64,000 nt of DNA from a virus. Location: IMG/VR virus record IMGVR_UViG_3300050821_001948, positions 1-64,000 of that record; one strand, written 5' to 3'. Within the stretch, counting starts at the first letter, position 1. Every line of letters begins with the position of its first letter. The position numbers and the translations under genes were made by a program. Positions 2,007 to 50,360 of the stretch are shown piece by piece. Below the pieces are notes generated by a model. It was not told the DNA's origin and ran no database searches. It saw only the letters and a program-made list of their open reading frames with translations.

Positions 2007-3995
2007 ATGGACGAGCTGAATATAGTTGAATATCTAGCCTCCAAAGGTAAGCACGGTAAGCGTGGCCCCGGCAATGAGATGATCTATGCCTGCTTCTTTG
2101 ATTGCGGCAGGAACGATGATGACCGTAAGAAGAAGCTCTATGTAAACACTGAAGAGGGCTGGTACTCCTGTAAGGTATGTGGGTCAGAGGGTGGAACCTT
2201 CTTACTTCAGAAGCACTTCGGGGATACCCCCGAGCGCACGAAGATCATTGGGGTAAACAACCAGGCCCGTCGCGAGATCTTAAACTCAGCTAGCGTTCTT
2301 GGCGCAGAGAATCTTCTAGCTAATGATGACGTCCTTCTCTATCTCATCAGTCGTGGCCTTGAAGCAGAGACCATCGAGAGATACCAGCTCGGTTTTATTG
2401 GTAACGGCTGGTCCTTGGCGCAATCCCTTGAGGGCAACTGGACGAAGGAAGACATCCGTTCCTCGGGGCTAGTTCACAGGGACGGCCAGCGCCAGGACAG
2501 AGATGTCTTCTGGAATCACATTCTCATTCCTTATCAGTCACGCGGACAGATTGTTCAAATCCGTGGTCGTATCGCTGATCCGAATCCTCCTAGTGGTACC
2601 CCCAAGTACCTGAGTGGCCCCGCCGAGCCCGTCCGCATCTATAACAGTGACGATCTTGACTGCGAAGATGTTATCGTTACTGAGGGTGAATTCGATTGTC
2701 TAGTCGTCAGACAGCTACTAGATAAGAGTACTGAAGAGAAGTATAGAAATATCGGAGTTGTTGGACTATCCGGCAGTGGCGCTTTGCCCGAGAATCTTGA
2801 GTCTCTCTTTTCCAACGTGAAGCGTATCTATACCGGATTCGACCCTGATAAGTCAGGCGTCAAGGGCGCTCAGCGCTTAAAGGATGCTCTAGGTGCTAGG
2901 GTTAGGGATCTATCTTTCCCGCCTGATATCGTGGCTGAGGCTTTCAAGGTTGGTAAGGTTGATAGCGATATAGACTGGTCGTTGCTCGTTAATGAATTTG
3001 GTCTAACTTGGCGCCACGTGGTATCGATGATATCTACGGCATCAGGGAAGCGCGTTTTCTCTATGGCTGAAGCGCGCCTCAGGAGAAGGACGCTCCGTTC
3101 TGGTAAGCCGAACTACCAGACTGGTATAGGTGCTCTTGATGACATCATTGACGGCGGCATGCACGCTGGCCAGCTCATGGTTCTCATGGCTCGCACTGGT
3201 GTTGGTAAGACGACACTTCTCTGCAACCTTGCCTATTATATGCGCAGCTATAGGATTCTTTTCATCTCTCTCGAAATGACCCAGGAGGAAGTTGCTGGTG
3301 TCATGGAGAAGATCTACTACTTCCATAATCCGAAGGCTACGAGTGAGGCTATTGATAGCGGCCTCGGGAACGTATATATCTTTGATGAGAACCGAATTGA
3401 TGATCAAGGACTCAACCAGATCATTGATGAATACGAGGTTGAGGTTGGGGCTAGACCTGAAATTGTAATGGTAGACTATCTTGGATACTTCGCCCGATCT
3501 GCTACTGGTTCAACACCCTATGAGAAGACGAGCAATGCTGTCATGCAGTTGAAGGCAGCGGCTAAAGGTGGAGGATCTTCTGATCCTCGGAAGCGCTTTG
3601 TTTGTATCTCTCCGACTCAGGCGAACAGAACGGTCAAGGAGGGTAAGCCGCTAGAACTTGATAGCGCCCGCGAGAGTGGTGTTATCGAGGAGACTGCTGA
3701 CTTTTTCTTCTCCCTTTGGCGCCCCGGTGACGCAGTAGGCGTGTCAGAATTAGGCGGCGAGGTTCAGAGATCTAATATTGTCATGCTTGATGTACTAAAA
3801 TCCCGTCATGGCGGTCGTGGGCGGAATGTCCAGTTAGTTTGGGATGAAACGTTCCTCGTCATGGCCGAATATGGCGATCACTCATTCGAGGCAAAGAGGG
3901 TTAAGTCACACAACACTAAGGCAGCACGTGGTGTCACTTATGAAAAGATGAGAGCTGAAGAAGATGGTTCCGGACAAAGCGCTATGGCGCTCTAG
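2007..3995 (+). CDS. Bifunctional DNA primase-helicase
   Basis: 662 residues, matching the two-domain layout of T7 gp4-like enzymes. These make RNA primers and unwind DNA at the phage fork. A zinc-binding head has Cys pairs near 29/33 and 55/58. A Toprim domain starts near 219 (VIVTEGEFDCL) and has the acidic GFDPDKSG near 277. A RecA/DnaB-type ATPase follows with Walker A (ARTGVGKTTLL) near residue 393-403, then a hydrophobic strand ending in VDYLGYF. Being first in a tight run with a dNMP kinase, ThyX and RecA supports a replisome role. The start follows AGGAAAGG. Confidence 0.92.
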   Translation: MDELNIVEYLASKGKHGKRGPGNEMIYACFFDCGRNDDDRKKKLYVNTEEGWYSCKVCGSEGGTFLLQKHFGDTPERTKIIGVNNQARREILNSASVLGAENLLANDDVLLYLISRGLEAETIERYQLGFIGNGWSLAQSLEGNWTKEDIRSSGLVHRDGQRQDRDVFWNHILIPYQSRGQIVQIRGRIADPNPPSGTPKYLSGPAEPVRIYNSDDLDCEDVIVTEGEFDCLVVRQLLDKSTEEKYRNIGVVGLSGSGALPENLESLFSNVKRIYTGFDPDKSGVKGAQRLKDALGARVRDLSFPPDIVAEAFKVGKVDSDIDWSLLVNEFGLTWRHVVSMISTASGKRVFSMAEARLRRRTLRSGKPNYQTGIGALDDIIDGGMHAGQLMVLMARTGVGKTTLLCNLAYYMRSYRILFISLEMTQEEVAGVMEKIYYFHNPKATSEAIDSGLGNVYIFDENRIDDQGLNQIIDEYEVEVGARPEIVMVDYLGYFARSATGSTPYEKTSNAVMQLKAAAKGGGSSDPRKRFVCISPTQANRTVKEGKPLELDSARESGVIEETADFFFSLWRPGDAVGVSELGGEVQRSNIVMLDVLKSRHGGRGRNVQLVWDETFLVMAEYGDHSFEAKRVKSHNTKAARGVTYEKMRAEEDGSGQSAMAL

Positions 3996-7379: not shown

Positions 7380-8202
7380 ACCAACGGTTCCCTACGCTGA
7401 GGTCATTGCCGACAGCATAAATGATAGGGATGACCGATTAACAACGATGAAGGTGGTTGCTCATCGGTTTGTGTTGGCTGAATTCAATACCCATAGAGTG
7501 TTTAGTAGAAATTCTGCTAGCTCTCGTGCTATCCCGCTAGAGAAGCAGCTTGAGAGGGTTAAGACAGATCCGGCATGGCCCCTAACTTGGCCAGCCGAGC
7601 AACCTGGAATGCAGGGTGGTGGAGAACTTGAGGGCACCTATAAGACATGGGCTGAGGGACTTTTTCTAAAGGCCAGGGATGCCGTTGTTGCCGAAGTAGA
7701 GTCATATATGAATAATGTTCTAAAGGAGTCTCGGCTTCACAAGAGTTATATCAACCGCCTCCTTGAACCATTCATGTGGCACACGATTATAGTTAGTTCA
7801 ACGGAATGGGAAAATTTCTTCGCTCAGCGATGTTCCCCATTGGCTCAACCTGAAATTAGATGGGCTGCTGAGGCTATGGAGCGCGCTCTAATATCATCCA
7901 CTCCTGTTAAACGTAGTAATTCATGGCACCTTCCCCTAGTAGATGAAGATCTACGTAAGCGCGTTGGTGATAACACGGCAGCTAAAATATCGGCCGCTAG
8001 ATGTGCTAGAGTTTCTTATCTAACCCATGATGGGGTTGTAGATCCAGTAAAAGACATTGATCTATATACTAGACTTGCGACCGCCAAGCCACCTCATTGG
8101 TCACCACTAGAGCATGCAGCCAGACCTTCGCGTTCCGGCGAGAGATCTGCTAATTTTAAGGGATGGACTCAGTTGAGGCAGATCGAAGAAGATGCTTCTT
8201 GA
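7372..8202 (+). CDS. thyX: Flavin-dependent thymidylate synthase
   Basis: 276 residues from the ATG at 7372 (ATGAGTGA overlap). The ThyX signature is present as THRVFSRNSASSRAIP: Ser45, Asn47, Ser50 and Arg52 match HRxxSxNxxSxR, with Thr in place of the first Arg. The enzyme makes dTMP from dUMP with FAD and methylene-tetrahydrofolate. The C-terminal PPHWSPLEHAARP and the closing GWTQLRQ stretch look complete. The HNH gene behind it overlaps only the last 11 bases and does not interrupt it. Confidence 0.93.
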   Translation: MSEPTVPYAEVIADSINDRDDRLTTMKVVAHRFVLAEFNTHRVFSRNSASSRAIPLEKQLERVKTDPAWPLTWPAEQPGMQGGGELEGTYKTWAEGLFLKARDAVVAEVESYMNNVLKESRLHKSYINRLLEPFMWHTIIVSSTEWENFFAQRCSPLAQPEIRWAAEAMERALISSTPVKRSNSWHLPLVDEDLRKRVGDNTAAKISAARCARVSYLTHDGVVDPVKDIDLYTRLATAKPPHWSPLEHAARPSRSGERSANFKGWTQLRQIEEDAS

Positions 8203-8722
8203 ATCTGATGCGCTTAGAGTTGAATATGAAACTGTGGTGGAAAAGCGTGGGTCTTACCAGAGGCCAATATATATTTTCCGCTGCTATAGTTGTGGTAAAG
8301 AGATGCGAAAGCAGCGCAGTTCATTATCTCGCCATTCCGGGTTTTGCGTTAGATGTGTAAAGAGAAATAGACATCCCTTACGTACAGTGTACAGCTCAAT
8401 GCGTTCCTCCTGTTTAAGGGAAAACAAGAGGTCCGGTAGAGATTGTCCCTTTGATTTAACTTTTGAGGAGTTTTTAGTTCATACCCAAGTCTCTTGCTGT
8501 ACCTATTGTGGGGGAGGGGTCAAATGGGTGAAGTATCGTAATGGACCTTCTAATATTGATAGGAAGGATAGTTCTAAAGGATATTCGGCCGATAATACGG
8601 TAGTTTGTTGTGGTACCTGTAATAGAATGAAAAGTAATTGGTATAGCTTCGAGGAGTTCGTTGCTATAAGTCGCCTACTAAGAGAGTGGATAAGTGGTAG
8701 AATGTCTCCGATGGATATCTAA
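8192..8722 (+). CDS. HNH-type homing endonuclease
   Basis: 176 residues. The N-terminal half has two Cys pairs (CYSCGK, CVRC). The C-terminal half holds CTYCGG, then NIDRKDSSKGYSADNTVVCC and GTCNRMKS. This is the zinc-stabilised HNH fold seen in phage group I intron-type and free-standing nucleases. Insertion directly behind thyX is a classic niche for such elements. The start overlaps the thyX stop by 11 bases. Confidence 0.85.
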   Translation: MLLESDALRVEYETVVEKRGSYQRPIYIFRCYSCGKEMRKQRSSLSRHSGFCVRCVKRNRHPLRTVYSSMRSSCLRENKRSGRDCPFDLTFEEFLVHTQVSCCTYCGGGVKWVKYRNGPSNIDRKDSSKGYSADNTVVCCGTCNRMKSNWYSFEEFVAISRLLREWISGRMSPMDI

Positions 8723-38172: not shown

Positions 38173-38433
38173 TCATAGAACTTGAGGAGTTCCGGGTCTT
38201 TGACAATAACATGGGTAGTGAATATAATCCAGCGCTAGAGCCTGTGAACGAATACCATCCTGCAACCTTTTCAGTTCAGCTTCGGCTTTGAGAGCGCGGC
38301 GATCCATGTAATCGAGAGGGACTGCGGCTATTTCTGGCTTATCGCGGGGCTCATGAGGACAGTCTTCCTGATGGGTTCCAAATACGAATAGGTCGCAACC
38401 GTTTTCACATTCGCCACTCGTAAACCAGCTCAT
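38173..38433 (-). CDS. Cys-rich N-terminal protein, possibly frameshifted
   Basis: 86 residues from the ATG at 38433 (ATGA overlap). CENGCDLFVFGTHQEDC near the start resembles a zinc site. After about residue 70 the +1 frame becomes more protein-like (VIVKDPELLKFYEGMAKDLY) and runs to a TGA at 38127-38129 that overlaps the next GTG. The annotated end leaves a 42-base gap. A +1 shift near 38215-38225 would join the two parts. Confidence 0.5.
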   Translation of the reverse strand: MSWFTSGECENGCDLFVFGTHQEDCPHEPRDKPEIAAVPLDYMDRRALKAEAELKRLQDGIRSQALALDYIHYPCYCQRPGTPQVL

Positions 38434-42583: not shown

Positions 42584-42636
42584 TTCTCCCCTTTAAAAGT
42601 TTGTGGAGCAGTTTGAATCTCATGCTCAGGAGGTAT

Positions 42637-42685
42637 CACTGGGCGACCTTCTTGGAGGTGTTAGCGATCACGGAGAAGCCCAGTG
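42637..42685 (-). other. 5' leader hairpin
   Basis: CACTGGGC (42637-42644) pairs perfectly with GCCCAGTG (42678-42685) around 33 bases. The stem begins almost at the predicted start of the transcript from the promoter at 42688, in a leader of about 100 nt. Confidence 0.5.
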
Positions 42686-42687
42686 AA

Positions 42688-42716
42688 AACTTATCTCACT
42701 TCTCACTTCTTGTCAA
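42688..42716 (-). promoter_or_regulatory. Promoter
   Basis: -35 TTGACA (42711-42716), 17-base spacer, -10 TAAGTT (42688-42693). The -35 encodes Leu-Asp in the last codons of the upstream zinc-ribbon gene. Confidence 0.68.
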
Positions 42717-43221
42717 GGGTGCGACACGTTTGACATCTAGGCAGGTGAGGCGTCCTCAAGGACTGGACAAAGATCCGGCTCTCGTGACCGCAGGGTAGTA
42801 TGACGTTTTGCTGTGGCCCGGTTTGCCCTGGAAGGATTATTACTCCCCGACTTTTCGCCACTGACTTTATGGCAGCTCCTCGCGTTTCGACTATACAGAT
42901 CTTACATTGCGGCTTCCTGCCTTGACGTAAGGTCTGTGACCATACCTTCTGCGCGTGTCCACACTCAAGGGTTGCTTCACCTGTCACGTTTCCATCGTCA
43001 GAGTTGTATCGGAAGCCATATTTTGATTCCAGATCGCCCCGTTCGCACCCCAGGCATCTATTTTTGAGGATGTAATATGGATTCTTGACTGCAAGGTGTT
43101 CACACAAGTGGAGTTTTACGGCTTCGAGGAGATTACCAGGGATCGGCTGTCCGTTTATTCTGGCTTCGTAGAGTCGGTACCGGGCTATTCGTAGGGCGTC
43201 ATCTAGGGCTATATTACTCAT
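42703..43221 (-). CDS. Zinc-ribbon (treble-clef-like) protein, paralogue 2
   Basis: 172 residues. After a helical N-terminus (IARYRLYEARINGQPIPGNLLEAVKLH) come CLGC, then two copies of a CGH-x(~15)-C-x2-C unit (about 86-109 and 143-166). The same N-terminal helix and units occur in the gene directly upstream, so they are tandem pa​ralogues. Such repeats resemble the treble-clef units of DUF4379-like proteins that accompany nucleases. It is the third gene of the helicase operon. Confidence 0.65.
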   Translation of the reverse strand: MSNIALDDALRIARYRLYEARINGQPIPGNLLEAVKLHLCEHLAVKNPYYILKNRCLGCERGDLESKYGFRYNSDDGNVTGEATLECGHAQKVWSQTLRQGRKPQCKICIVETRGAAIKSVAKSRGVIILPGQTGPQQNVILPCGHESRIFVQSLRTPHLPRCQTCRTLDKK

Positions 43222-43880
43222 ACAGAATTCCTGAACCCCACGACTCCCTTTGCGCGATTGTTGTTTCGTATTTCTCTACGCCGCTTATTGAAGGTGCTAC
43301 GAGAGCATTTTTTACATTCCCCAGATCTAATGGTAACTTTTTCGCGCGGGATTCCGCAACTTATACAACAAACCGAGCATCTATAATTCCTAGTAGATCC
43401 AGGAGGTGGTGGCGCGCAGAATATTTCATGGCCACATTCATATAAGTAAACCATTTTAGTGGACATATTCTTGAATTTTTGCCCTGGGGCTAGCCGTAAT
43501 TGGAATTGTGAAAAGACCCTATCTGTTGCTTTTTCAAGAGAGTCTTCTTTTCGACAAGTAGTACAGTAAGGAATCTTCCTAGAATTCCCATAATAGAAAT
43601 TTGATATTGTATACCTACCAACATGACCATTTGGACAGGTTGCTGTTAATATTTCACGGGTGTCATCGGGAATTCCAGAATGTGTAAAATTACCAAGCTT
43701 CAGGAGGGAATCAAGATCCTCTTTCCAGGACTTTTCTTTTAAAAAACCAGGGACATGTAGTCTAATTGCCTCAATCATCGCTTCACTAGGCTCTAGCCCA
43801 GCTTTAATAGCTGCCCTAACCCGCGCTTGCGCGGCCCAAATGACTTGATTCTTTGTTTGATTTTTATTTGGAGGCCGCAT
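43218..43880 (-). CDS. Zinc-ribbon (treble-clef-like) protein, paralogue 1
   Basis: 220 residues. N-terminal helix AQARVRAAIKAGLEPSEAMIEAIRLH matches the paralogue at 42703. Then come CPNGH...CTTC, CGHEIF...CSVC and a final CISCG...CKKC, three zinc units, and a basic tail with KRRREIRNNNRAK. DNA or RNA binding is likely. It overlaps the helicase stop by 17 bases, so the two are made together. Confidence 0.65.
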   Translation of the reverse strand: MRPPNKNQTKNQVIWAAQARVRAAIKAGLEPSEAMIEAIRLHVPGFLKEKSWKEDLDSLLKLGNFTHSGIPDDTREILTATCPNGHVGRYTISNFYYGNSRKIPYCTTCRKEDSLEKATDRVFSQFQLRLAPGQKFKNMSTKMVYLYECGHEIFCAPPPPGSTRNYRCSVCCISCGIPREKVTIRSGECKKCSRSTFNKRRREIRNNNRAKGVVGFRNSV

Positions 43881-45420
43881 AAGACTTCAATTCGGTAATA
43901 AGTTCCTCATCTGTAATCCAGCCAGTTACAGTGTAAAGCGTCGTGGGAAACAGGTCGGAATAATGCTTAAACGTACCCTCGTACACTGGCGCGTCAGCAG
44001 TTCCACTCTTACTAACCTTACGGATCTGGTTCTCTGCAAGGTTAGCCCATGAGACCACCATGGATAGTTCCGGATTTTGGAGACCCGTTAGGATCTCTCG
44101 TACAGGACCCCATCCCTCCTGCTCGAAAATCTCATTCTGGTTCCCGTTGTAATCATCCGACACTAGCAAGGGGATAATAACATCCGTTAGCCGTCCACTT
44201 GGCGTCATGCGGGTACCGCGTCCCACGCGCTGAATAATATCCACGGGTGATCTATGCATGTCGACAAACGCGACAGTATCTACGGCTGGTACGTCCACGC
44301 CCTCGCCTACCGTACGACATGAGCATAGGATATAGGCCGAATGGGCTCCATTGCCTAGGTGTTCTAGGGTTCCTAGGGCCTCATTAATCTTATCACGACT
44401 CATCTTGCCTGAAATATAGACGGCCTTAATACTGGGTCCGAAGTAGTGTTCGGAGAATCTACGTGCGGCTTCTACCGTTTGGAAGTATGCCATGACACGC
44501 TGGTTACCCTTAGAAATGGCGTTGAGGATTGCCTGTCGTGCAATAAGTTCCCGCTCAGTCATAGGCTTCCCGGCAACAGTGTGACCCGAATCCGGTCTAC
44601 CGTACTTGTCAATAGTCGTAGCAAGTGCTGCTTTACGCATTGCTTTTGTGAACGACTTAGGGGATGCCATGGCAATGTGGATTTTGTAGTCAGAGGCAAT
44701 TCCCCGAGCTACAGCATCGGTAAACTTGAACTCATATGCGCAAGGTCCAAAATGACTTTCATCCCTCATGCCAATACGCATTTCGAAGTCAGTCTTATCA
44801 GAGTGCTTTGGGGTCGCGGTGACAAACAGCTTCCGCGTACCTAGCTTGCGCCTGTAACCTTCTCGTTTCGTGGCGTTGTCAAAAGAGTGAATGGCTTGCG
44901 CGAATCGCCCAAACTCCATAGTGCTAGCACCCTTTGGAATTAAAACAGTTGCATGATGTGCTTCATCCACGATGAGAAGAACATCGTCGCGGCGGCGGCG
45001 GAGGGCATTATTACCGGCTACCTTACGGGCGAAACTGCTGTTGGTGGTAAATACGATAAGTGGTAAGCCAGATTTGACCATCTCAGTCAGATCGTCCTTG
45101 GAATCACCACTGACAACGCAGTATTGATACTCGGACGGTTCTACAACAACAGGAGGTAAGCCATTGCGTCGCAATACGTGCTGAGGGTTCTGCCACTTAA
45201 GGAGCGCCTCAGCGATGAGCGCCTTCGTCGGGAAGGTTACGACGATGATTGGCTGGGTGACAGGCTTGACGGCGCGGATTGCAGCCTCGTAACAGATGTT
45301 AGTCTTACCTGTGCCCGTAGCTGAGATGACATGGGTGTAGCGATAGCCGCCTTGGTATTTGCCAAGGATTGCTTTAACCGCCGCTCGGGCATGCTTATTG
45401 AATTCCGTTTGCTTTTCCAT
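43864..45420 (-). CDS. Superfamily 2 DEAD/DEAH-type helicase
   Basis: 518 residues from the ATG at 45420. Motif I ATGTGKT lies near 34-40, motif II IVDEAHH near 149, motif III TATP near 196, and motif VI QRVGRGTRMT in the second lobe. The layout is that of RecG/UvsW-like or restriction-type helicases. No nuclease domain is seen. It could act in recombination-dependent replication, or with the two zinc proteins as a nucleic-acid-targeting complex; the latter is inference. Confidence 0.87.
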   Translation of the reverse strand: MEKQTEFNKHARAAVKAILGKYQGGYRYTHVISATGTGKTNICYEAAIRAVKPVTQPIIVVTFPTKALIAEALLKWQNPQHVLRRNGLPPVVVEPSEYQYCVVSGDSKDDLTEMVKSGLPLIVFTTNSSFARKVAGNNALRRRRDDVLLIVDEAHHATVLIPKGASTMEFGRFAQAIHSFDNATKREGYRRKLGTRKLFVTATPKHSDKTDFEMRIGMRDESHFGPCAYEFKFTDAVARGIASDYKIHIAMASPKSFTKAMRKAALATTIDKYGRPDSGHTVAGKPMTERELIARQAILNAISKGNQRVMAYFQTVEAARRFSEHYFGPSIKAVYISGKMSRDKINEALGTLEHLGNGAHSAYILCSCRTVGEGVDVPAVDTVAFVDMHRSPVDIIQRVGRGTRMTPSGRLTDVIIPLLVSDDYNGNQNEIFEQEGWGPVREILTGLQNPELSMVVSWANLAENQIRKVSKSGTADAPVYEGTFKHYSDLFPTTLYTVTGWITDEELITELKSYAASK

Positions 45421-45426
45421 GATCAA

Positions 45427-45455
45427 AAAATATCCTAACGTCCGTTACTTGTCAA
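45427..45455 (-). promoter_or_regulatory. Promoter of the helicase operon, with embedded operator
   Basis: -35 TTGACA (45450-45455), 17-base spacer, -10 TATTTT (45427-45432). The ATG at 45420 follows the -10 by 6 bases: leaderless. The spacer holds AACGTCCGTT (45437-45446), the reverse complement of the palindrome in the MoxR promoter. Confidence 0.75.
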
Positions 45456-45687: not shown

Positions 45688-46034
45688 GCCGCTTCCTCAT
45701 GTGGATACTTAACCCGAAGCGAGTCAGGGATGTAGTCCTTGTGGTTGTCAAAATCCATGATGAAGTCATGGATGGCATCCGAAAAATTGACACACTGATG
45801 GATACCTCTAACGAGAATCCCGAAGCTGTAGACGTCAACCGGGATTCCCGTTCGCAGCTTCAAATACAGGGCCACAGGACAGGATTCAGGGTAGCTAACA
45901 CCGACGATGCCGAGTTCATCCAGGAAATGGGCGACACCCTCAGGGGTTTGTGGTAGCGCGCTTAGCGCAACCTCAATCCGTCGAATCTTGCGCGCGGTTA
46001 GCTTCCTGGATATTACATCGACCAGACTCTTCAC
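45684..46034 (-). CDS. Paralogous phage protein (CPxAxYL family copy 2)
   Basis: 116 residues. ALSALPQTPEGVAHFLDELGIVGV, CPVALYLKLRTGIPVDVYS and FIMDFDNH match the genes at 37454 and 53576. Basic N-terminal helix. ATGA link with the Ku-like gene. Confidence 0.65.
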   Translation of the reverse strand: MKSLVDVISRKLTARKIRRIEVALSALPQTPEGVAHFLDELGIVGVSYPESCPVALYLKLRTGIPVDVYSFGILVRGIHQCVNFSDAIHDFIMDFDNHKDYIPDSLRVKYPHEEAA

Positions 46035-46897
46035 ACGTCTGCCTTCACCTTTGTGGCTTTCTTGACAACTGTCGTCTTAGGTTTGGCGGCGCGCGCCTTC
46101 GCCGCAATCGCCCGTTCCAGATTGACTGTTAGGTCCAGCGTCGTGGCAGTATCGCCAGATTTTTCCTTCGGAGCGGTTGCATCAACCGGAGTTCCGGCTT
46201 CGACAAGCTCTTCCAGCTTCGCCCGACTCTGGTTCACGTAGTGCTCCAGCTCAAATCCTTCGACGGAAGTGTCAAGGAGCTGAGTCAGGAGGTCGACCTG
46301 CTTGGCATCTGCACCAATACCAGCCGTTGGAGCGGGCTGCTGATCCTCTGGCCACGCCAACTGAGAGATCGTCAGAGTGTCGCCGCGAACTCCTAGACGG
46401 TACAGAGCGGCCTTCGTGCGGGAAGCCCAGGTGGTCACCATTGCCAGATCTGGACGGGTCTTCAGAACCTCCACGAACAGCGCGTAGGCATTACCAGCAC
46501 CCTTAGCTGGTGACAGGTAATAAACCGATCCTGTCGGCATCAGGGAAGAGATCTCGTCGGCCGGGTGAACATTGACACTCATGCCGAACTTGACTTCATC
46601 CGGCGCCTCAAGTTCCTTCAGCTCATCCTTGGACAGGATAACGGCGGTGTTGCCGACCTTGCGCCCTCGCAGCGGAAAGTCCCGCGTAGTTCCTTCAGTG
46701 GAGCACAGGGGGCAACGGTATAACTGGTTCAACGAAGAAGGATTATGTTCACCGTGTCCACCGTCACACAGCATCGAAAGTCCCGTAGATGGTTCAGAGA
46801 CTGCTGACATGACATCGAATGAGCCTAAAGTAAGTCCACTGACACTCAGTGAAACCCCTGATCGAATCGGACTAGCCACTTTGACCACTTCCTTCAT
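46031..46897 (-). CDS. Ku-like DNA end-binding protein
   Basis: 288 residues, the usual size of bacterial Ku. The N-terminal SPIRSGVSLSVSGLTLGSF, the middle KVGNTAVILSKDELKEL, the segment YYLSPAKGAGNAYALFVEVL, and the helical KQVDLLTQLLDTSVEGFELEHYVN... RAKLEELVEAG follow the bacterial Ku core in order. A Cys-rich insertion (CDGGHGEHN... YRCPLCS, about 44-68) looks like a zinc site. The C-terminus is Lys/Ala-rich (KARAAKPKTTVVKKATKVK), typical of DNA-binding tails. It would bind double-strand ends and recruit a ligase. Confidence 0.8.
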   Translation of the reverse strand: MKEVVKVASPIRSGVSLSVSGLTLGSFDVMSAVSEPSTGLSMLCDGGHGEHNPSSLNQLYRCPLCSTEGTTRDFPLRGRKVGNTAVILSKDELKELEAPDEVKFGMSVNVHPADEISSLMPTGSVYYLSPAKGAGNAYALFVEVLKTRPDLAMVTTWASRTKAALYRLGVRGDTLTISQLAWPEDQQPAPTAGIGADAKQVDLLTQLLDTSVEGFELEHYVNQSRAKLEELVEAGTPVDATAPKEKSGDTATTLDLTVNLERAIAAKARAAKPKTTVVKKATKVKADV

Positions 46898-49537: not shown

Positions 49538-49717
49538 CTAGCTCCTCCCGATTATGGATTCTAAATCACTGATAACACCATAAAGGATATCAGCCCGGTG
49601 GTCTGCCATTCTACGGGTGTATCCATCCTCATCAATGCAGCGAGCTGTATAGGAGGCTCGCTCTGCTTTTTCTTGATAGCCAAGAATGAGATCTTCAATC
49701 TCTTCGTTTACTGTCAC
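49538..49717 (-). CDS. Unknown small protein
   Basis: 59 residues from the GTG at 49717, four bases after a strong AGGAGG. The longer frame would overlap the HNH gene by 77 bases. Helical, charged. Unrecognised. Confidence 0.58.
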   Translation of the reverse strand: MTVNEEIEDLILGYQEKAERASYTARCIDEDGYTRRMADHRADILYGVISDLESIIGRS

Positions 49718-50360
49718 GATTCCTCCTATCGGTAGTTCGCTTACGGTGACAAATTGCACAAACAAGATCACACTTCGCGAGTTCTGCTAGAACCTTTTCT
49801 TTTGAGAGCTGGACCATTTTAGAGGGGGTATATAACTTAACCTCCCCATCACGGTGATCCCATTCCATGGCATGAGGATGATGTTTAACCCCACAATCCA
49901 TGCAAGGGAAGTCTTTAAGTGAATTGAACCACTCCCGGCTTCTTTCTCGGGAGCGACGTTGACTTGCTAAGGCGCGTTCTCTATTCGACCCAGTACGATT
50001 CCTACGCGCCTTTTCTCTATTATGTTCCCTATGGGCTTCATCCCATAATCTAGTCTTTTCTTTATGTCGTGCTCTACTTTCTTCTGGAGTTAATAGAACA
50101 CGCGGAACAACACTCTCAGGATTCTTTTTACGTCGATAAGCCCTCTGTTTAGCGCGCGCTGCTTCTGGATCGGCTAACCTACGCTCTAATTGATAAGCTA
50201 ATCTTATTTCTCGATTAGCTAAATAAGTAGCTCGGGCTTTTTCCTTTGTTCTAGCCGCATAGTCCGCGTCGGTATCAAGCCTATTTCTTCGATACTCTCT
50301 CTGTTTAGTGTTTCGCAGCTCTAACTCTTGAGGGGTTAGTTCGCTAGCGAGGCGCGTCAT
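49695..50360 (-). CDS. HNH endonuclease with basic helical N-terminus
   Basis: 221 residues. The first 150 are Arg/Lys/Ala/Glu-rich and helical. The HNH core at about 160-205 is CMDCGVKHHPHAMEWDHRDG, then LAKCDLVCAICHRKRT. It is probably a free-standing homing nuclease. It has its own leaderless promoter, unlike the HNH genes of the left block. Confidence 0.83.
   Translation of the reverse strand: MTRLASELTPQELELRNTKQREYRRNRLDTDADYAARTKEKARATYLANREIRLAYQLERRLADPEAARAKQRAYRRKKNPESVVPRVLLTPEESRARHKEKTRLWDEAHREHNREKARRNRTGSNRERALASQRRSRERSREWFNSLKDFPCMDCGVKHHPHAMEWDHRDGEVKLYTPSKMVQLSKEKVLAELAKCDLVCAICHRKRTTDRRNRDSKRRD

Follow-up and report, generated by a model that had tools for sequence, protein, structure and literature searches.

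Genes at the locus and their context

The window analysed in this study is a 64 kb stretch of a 130,643-base virus record. Three neighbouring genes on its minus strand encode an SF2 helicase or translocase and two zinc proteins, designated Z1 and Z2 (Table 1). The initial annotation had placed these genes correctly with respect to coordinates, strand and overlaps: the helicase and Z1 genes share 17 nt (43864-43880), and the Z1 and Z2 genes overlap at ATGA. These overlaps make co-translation of the trio likely. They are ordinary in this genome, where a simple ORF picker gave a 4-nt overlap in 35 of 192 same-strand neighbouring pairs and an overlap of 10-25 nt in 12 other same-strand pairs.

Table 1. 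Positions of the genes and the promoter-like site described in this study. Positions refer to the window unless another virus or locus is named.
Feature	Position	Strand	Remarks
SF2 helicase/translocase	43864-45426	-	ResIII and Helicase_C; no HA domains; no nuclease
Z1 zinc protein, 220 aa	43218-43880	-	N-terminal helical hairpin, three Cys/His clusters, basic tail
Z2 stand-alone CGH...CxxC zinc array, 172 aa	42703-43221	-	No nuclease domain
Promoter-like TTGACA-17-TATTTT	45427-45455	-	10/12 matches; 39-nt gap before helicase
Ku-like DNA-end-binding protein	46031-46897	-	Pfam Ku 2.3e-8; phrog_4873 1.5e-14
HNH endonuclease gene	49695-50360	-	GC3 0.34, low
Endonuclease VII/HNH-like gene	8192-8722	+	GC lower than in any other ORF of 100 aa or more
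L172 stand-alone two-unit CGH zinc protein, 121 aa	9945-10310	-	Another virus
L156 protein, three CGH zinc units and C-terminal HNH nuclease	2891-3799	+	Pattern scan

The promoter-like site ahead of the helicase would begin a transcript with the three genes. It leaves almost no leader ahead of the helicase, and promoter-like sites of the region showed no excess over shuffles. A 9-nt palindrome, CTTGTCAAG, found at each end of the trio (42709 and 45448), was rejected as a regulatory site since 10 of 100 shuffles equalled it. The gap after Z2 contains an inverted repeat (42631-42691; 14-nt arms, 86% complementary), possibly a terminator or an operator for the next gene. Elsewhere in the region, a perfect sigma-70 consensus (TTGACA-17-TATAAT, 38200-38228) was observed on the plus strand within the minus-strand gene block.

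The trio sits inside a long block of small genes, all on the minus strand, that extends beyond it. The Ku-like gene, which is context outside the trio, lies three genes upstream of the helicase in the same block, and genes for a 73-aa and a 116-aa protein occupy the space between them on the same strand. The trio is therefore not delimited as a group of its own. An endonuclease VII/HNH-like gene located elsewhere in the window overlaps the preceding ORF by 11 nt.

The virus is actinophage-like, judging from its ribonucleotide reductase, whose identity is 64% with the enzyme of Actinomycetia phage DSL-LC01 and 56% with that of Mycobacterium phage Gaia. Comparison of the 38-50 kb region with a phage collection at the DNA level found no close relative. 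DSL-LC01, considered as a relative on account of the reductase, was set aside because its annotated gene order is different and the zinc-array profile described below has no match there.

Helicase domains and relatives

The helicase comprises 520 aa from a TTG start, or 518 aa from the ATG at 45420. It has an SF2 core with the conserved motifs ATGTGKT, DEAH, TATP and QRVGRGTR, and it matched the Pfam families ResIII (1.2e-10) and Helicase_C (4.5e-13). Pfam analysis detected no HA domain (PF03457) in this protein, which ends shortly past the core. Among annotated records the best E-values, down to 2e-22, were obtained with TtrA-like or HA-domain helicases. The best plasmid matches were mostly Streptomyces 'Helicase associated domain' proteins from linear plasmids, and among the plasmid matches listed 23 of 30 are located no further than 1 kb from the end of a replicon, a position described for the helicase gene ttrA (PMC8743542). 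The nearest solved structures were the motors of the Type ISP enzymes LlaGI and LlaBIII (E 1.3e-16).

Identity between the helicase and its relatives is about 22-29% over most of the length. Five relatives scanned with Pfam carry 4-7 HA domains past the core, bar one that is cut off by a contig end, and these domains begin about where the phage helicase stops. The 158 relatives collected from IMG/VR and genome contigs comprised 49 with HA domains, 70 ISP-like proteins longer than 1,400 aa and 39 others. In the phylogenetic tree the helicase fell outside the Type ISP clade, in a supported set of 14 rows of which 12 are HA-type helicases. Its exact place in the tree is unsure because its branch is extremely long (4.78); it is joined to another long branch. 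By sequence, the protein appears to be a very divergent SF2 motor, with a very long branch, among the HA-domain helicases that include the telomere-end helicases of Streptomyces. Three degenerate helicase-motif patterns, which proved too strict, gave no matches, and single-protein scans of IMG/VR with the helicase, Z1 or Z2 found no relative.

Z2 and the CGH...CxxC zinc-array family

Analysis of Z2 revealed two clear C-G-H-x16-C-x2-C units (residues 69-109 and 122-166) and a possible degenerate third unit, C40-E-H42...C56xxC59 (residues 40-59). The similarity between the two clear units greatly exceeds chance (z 10.9; z 5.1 with Cys and His fixed). A weak tblastn match connected Z2 to ORF1 of Curvibacter phage P26059A, in which four CGH...CxxC repeats precede a GIY-YIG/MUG113-like domain and which has homologues in Vibrio phages K566 and K567. 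Direct comparison of Z2 with the Curvibacter phage protein gave z=9.5 (6.4 with Cys and His fixed), and a profile made of eight units from two GIY-YIG proteins alone (P26059A and K566) recovered Z2 at 3e-8. A pattern scan of IMG/VR revealed at least seven further proteins with the array and a GIY-YIG domain, at least one with the array and an HNH domain (L156) and at least one stand-alone array (L172). Overall, the repeat of Z2 is found fused to GIY-YIG/T5orf172 nucleases in at least nine proteins and to an HNH nuclease in at least one, which bears out the suggestion of the initial annotation that zinc units of this kind accompany nucleases. Judging from L156, the CGH array is common to GIY-YIG and HNH nucleases.

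A profile of the unit (CGHu) was built without Z2, its main sources being arrays of phage nucleases of the GIY-YIG/T5orf172 and HNH types. In a search of 9,619 ORFs of the phage and the viral loci it recovered Z2 at E=2.9e-11; the remaining ORFs of the phage, and those next to the viral relatives of the helicase, scored no better than E=0.08. A GIY-YIG profile run over all six frames of the record gave no match and no remnant, and neither Z1 nor Z2 carries a fused nuclease, in agreement with the earlier statement that no nuclease is present. Since the CGHu profile finds Z2 and the GIY-YIG profile finds nothing in the record, Z2 is assigned, on its sequence, to the CGH array family as a nuclease-less member. 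The CGH unit matched neither DUF723 nor DUF4379 of Pfam, and no specific Pfam or NCBIfam model matched it, so many CGH-array proteins are probably filed as hypothetical. Matches of Z2, and likewise of Z1, to PDB sequences were at chance level.

The stand-alone array L172 immediately precedes a primase-like gene of 785 aa. About 5-6 kb further on, the same locus contains an ORF that resembles an SF2 helicase and another, zinc-rich ORF that is HNH-like.

Z1 and its relationship to Z2

The Cys/His clusters of Z1 are C-x3-H...CxxC, CGH...CxxC and a third one, CxxC-x13-CxxC. The protein was not found by the CGHu profile among the 9,619 ORFs; its best unit reached a conditional E of 0.006 in a search space of Z1 and Z2 only. 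A tblastn search of Z1 against phages gave no match at E<1. Its PHROG matches, all weak, were to HNH endonuclease families alone (phrog_559, 0.022; phrog_826, 0.041), and the first of these is the family that L156, the array and HNH protein, matched best. Base composition sets Z1 apart: with a GC of 0.419 (GC3 0.34) it has the second-lowest GC of the 139 ORFs of at least 100 aa, the lowest being that of the endonuclease VII/HNH-like gene, and its GC3 is the same as that of the HNH endonuclease gene (Table 1). Z2 (GC 0.51) and the helicase (GC 0.50) are average for the phage. We infer that Z1 is a later acquisition of homing-nuclease-like origin, probably with HNH-endonuclease ancestry.

Z1 and Z2 had been described as tandem paralogues. 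Both are Cys-rich, and they form the top-scoring pair among the phage's own proteins (next score 32), but their kinship is weak. Local alignment gave a score of 46 (p=0.014; 0.065 with Cys and His fixed) and semi-global alignment a score of 49 (p=0.0005; 0.012 with Cys and His fixed), p values being derived from shuffles. Collinear features are an N-terminal hairpin, CxxxH/CGH and CxxC clusters and a PGQ stretch before the second CGH. The proposed shared N-terminal helix corresponds to a helical hairpin (p=0.017) that single-sequence AlphaFold models draw in both proteins (pLDDT about 60 locally), but these models are of low confidence, with overall pLDDT of 41 and 38. Of the repeated CGH...CxxC units attributed to both proteins, Z2 has two clear ones and Z1 has one among its three clusters. 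Paralogy of Z1 and Z2 appears less secure, and a simple co-inherited duplicated pair is doubtful because the base composition of the two genes differs sharply.

Linkage of the helicase to zinc arrays

The flanks fetched for the 158 relatives of the helicase (+/-4-5 kb) contained no CGH array. The top zinc-array match was at 0.084 near the viral relatives; near those from genome contigs it was at 0.025, in an ORF of roughly 53 aa on the opposite strand. Whole records of 44 helicase relatives and of DSL-LC01 contained no CGH array, and both array-bearing control records were detected. Conversely, this helicase was found in none of the 11 array-bearing records listed, a search without a positive control in which many records are fragments. 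As far as tested, the association of helicase and zinc array is unique to this record among those examined, and the helicase relatives are all distant. Since these relatives are only about 22-29% identical, the missing linkage is weak evidence.

The initial annotation had regarded the trio as a three-gene unit, a view that gains no support as no other genome examined repeats it. It had also named the common occurrence of the zinc proteins away from the helicase as a finding that would speak against such a unit; this is what was found for the Z2 family, in 11 of 11 records listed.

Interpretation of the locus

The trio recurs in none of the other genomes examined and is therefore probably a set of separate neighbouring genes, not one dedicated machine of three proteins. 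On balance we lean towards a chance neighbourhood in which Z2 is a nuclease-less DNA-binding array, Z1 a later HNH-derived gain and the helicase a separate translocase. Z2 consists of the zinc repeat of phage GIY-YIG/T5orf172 and some HNH homing-type endonucleases, with the array kept and the nuclease absent. The array in these endonucleases is presumed to bind DNA on the basis of their architecture; repeated zinc-finger domains for DNA binding are a regular feature of T5orf172 nucleases (PMC10448857). Z2 would most likely bind particular sites in the phage DNA and serve as a regulator or an accessory DNA-binding protein, by analogy with CapR, a transcriptional repressor that is encoded by a satellite, acts on phage capsid expression and is homologous to the zinc domains of T5orf172 homing endonucleases, from which it derives (PMC10448857). 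A CapR-like role is favoured because the array is kept while the nuclease is absent and because there is a precedent in I-TevI, where the DNA-binding part of a homing endonuclease can act as a repressor (T4 mobile element review, PMC2988022). Z1 would be a zinc protein of more distant kinship, gained later and probably descended from an HNH endonuclease. The helicase would be a separate ATP-dependent DNA translocase, probably acting in replication or recombination; the closest members of its family have C-terminal HA domains, which are absent here. We infer DNA binding by Z2 and Z1, the regulatory role and the task of the helicase.

A rather unlikely alternative is a split helicase complex, in which the HA array was lost and Z1 and Z2 bind DNA in trans and load the translocase at chosen sites or structures. 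The 4-7 HA domains of the relatives start about where the phage helicase stops, the zinc genes directly follow the helicase gene and overlap, and two-protein assemblies of a helicase and a DNA-recognition partner exist, for example CglI R2H2 (PMC5737866). However, no helicase relative with such a zinc partner was found in the stretches fetched around the 158 relatives, the base composition of Z1 is unlike that of the helicase, and DNA binding by HA domains is itself assumed. That an HA-less helicase is targeted in trans by exchangeable zinc-array subunits taken from homing endonucleases we regard as unlikely; if it is true that the helicase uses zinc arrays in trans, this would be a new way of helicase targeting.

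It is quite improbable that Z1 and Z2 represent mere leftovers of homing endonuclease genes, decaying or non-autonomous, with no function of their own. Their array family is that of homing-type nucleases, and Z1 shares the low GC of the phage HNH genes; on the other hand, both reading frames are intact with plausible ribosome sites, the six-frame GIY-YIG search detected no nuclease remnant, and a second stand-alone array exists elsewhere (L172). The defence or counter-defence unit suggested earlier is very improbable: the helicase motor is similar to the motors of Type ISP restriction enzymes, but there is no nuclease, methylase or other effector, the zinc proteins match no PADLOC family, the PADLOC matches of the helicase are limited to the motor parts of larger proteins, and the helicase stands outside the ISP clade.

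Comparison with known systems

As a cluster the trio is ordinary; its mildly new parts are the nuclease-less CGH zinc array and the divergent HA-less helicase. The helicase has the SF2 core in common with the TtrA-like HA-domain helicases of Streptomyces linear replicons, which gave its best E-values, but it is about 24-28% identical to them, lacks HA domains and is not near the record end. Compared with LlaGI and LlaBIII, whose motor domain is its nearest solved structure, it is a motor only, without the Mrr nuclease, methyltransferase and target-recognition domain of Type ISP enzymes.

For Z2, the closest likeness is to the T5orf172 (GIY-YIG) phage homing endonucleases with zinc arrays (CapR, DUF723 and DUF4379-type). 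The tandem zinc unit is shared with the array and GIY-YIG proteins of Curvibacter phage P26059A, Vibrio phage K566 and at least seven IMG/VR loci; unlike them, Z2 has no nuclease domain, and its CGH unit fits neither DUF model. The plant EFFECTOR OF TRANSCRIPTION proteins combine zinc/DNA-binding repeats with GIY-YIG in the same design as the array nucleases (PMC6585611); they are likened by design and, unlike Z2, retain the GIY-YIG domain. CapR, the capsid-operon repressor of the Vibrio satellite PLE, is like Z2 a nuclease-less zinc protein related to homing endonucleases (PMC10448857). The likeness is one of description. The CapR finger is CxxC...CxC in place of the CGH unit, and Z2 is encoded next to a helicase in a phage and not by a satellite. 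Z2 is a clear case of the zinc array of a homing-type nuclease without the nuclease in an actinophage-like virus, and L172 represents another virus. Together they extend the CapR precedent and suggest that such arrays may have been freed repeatedly as stand-alone DNA-binding proteins.
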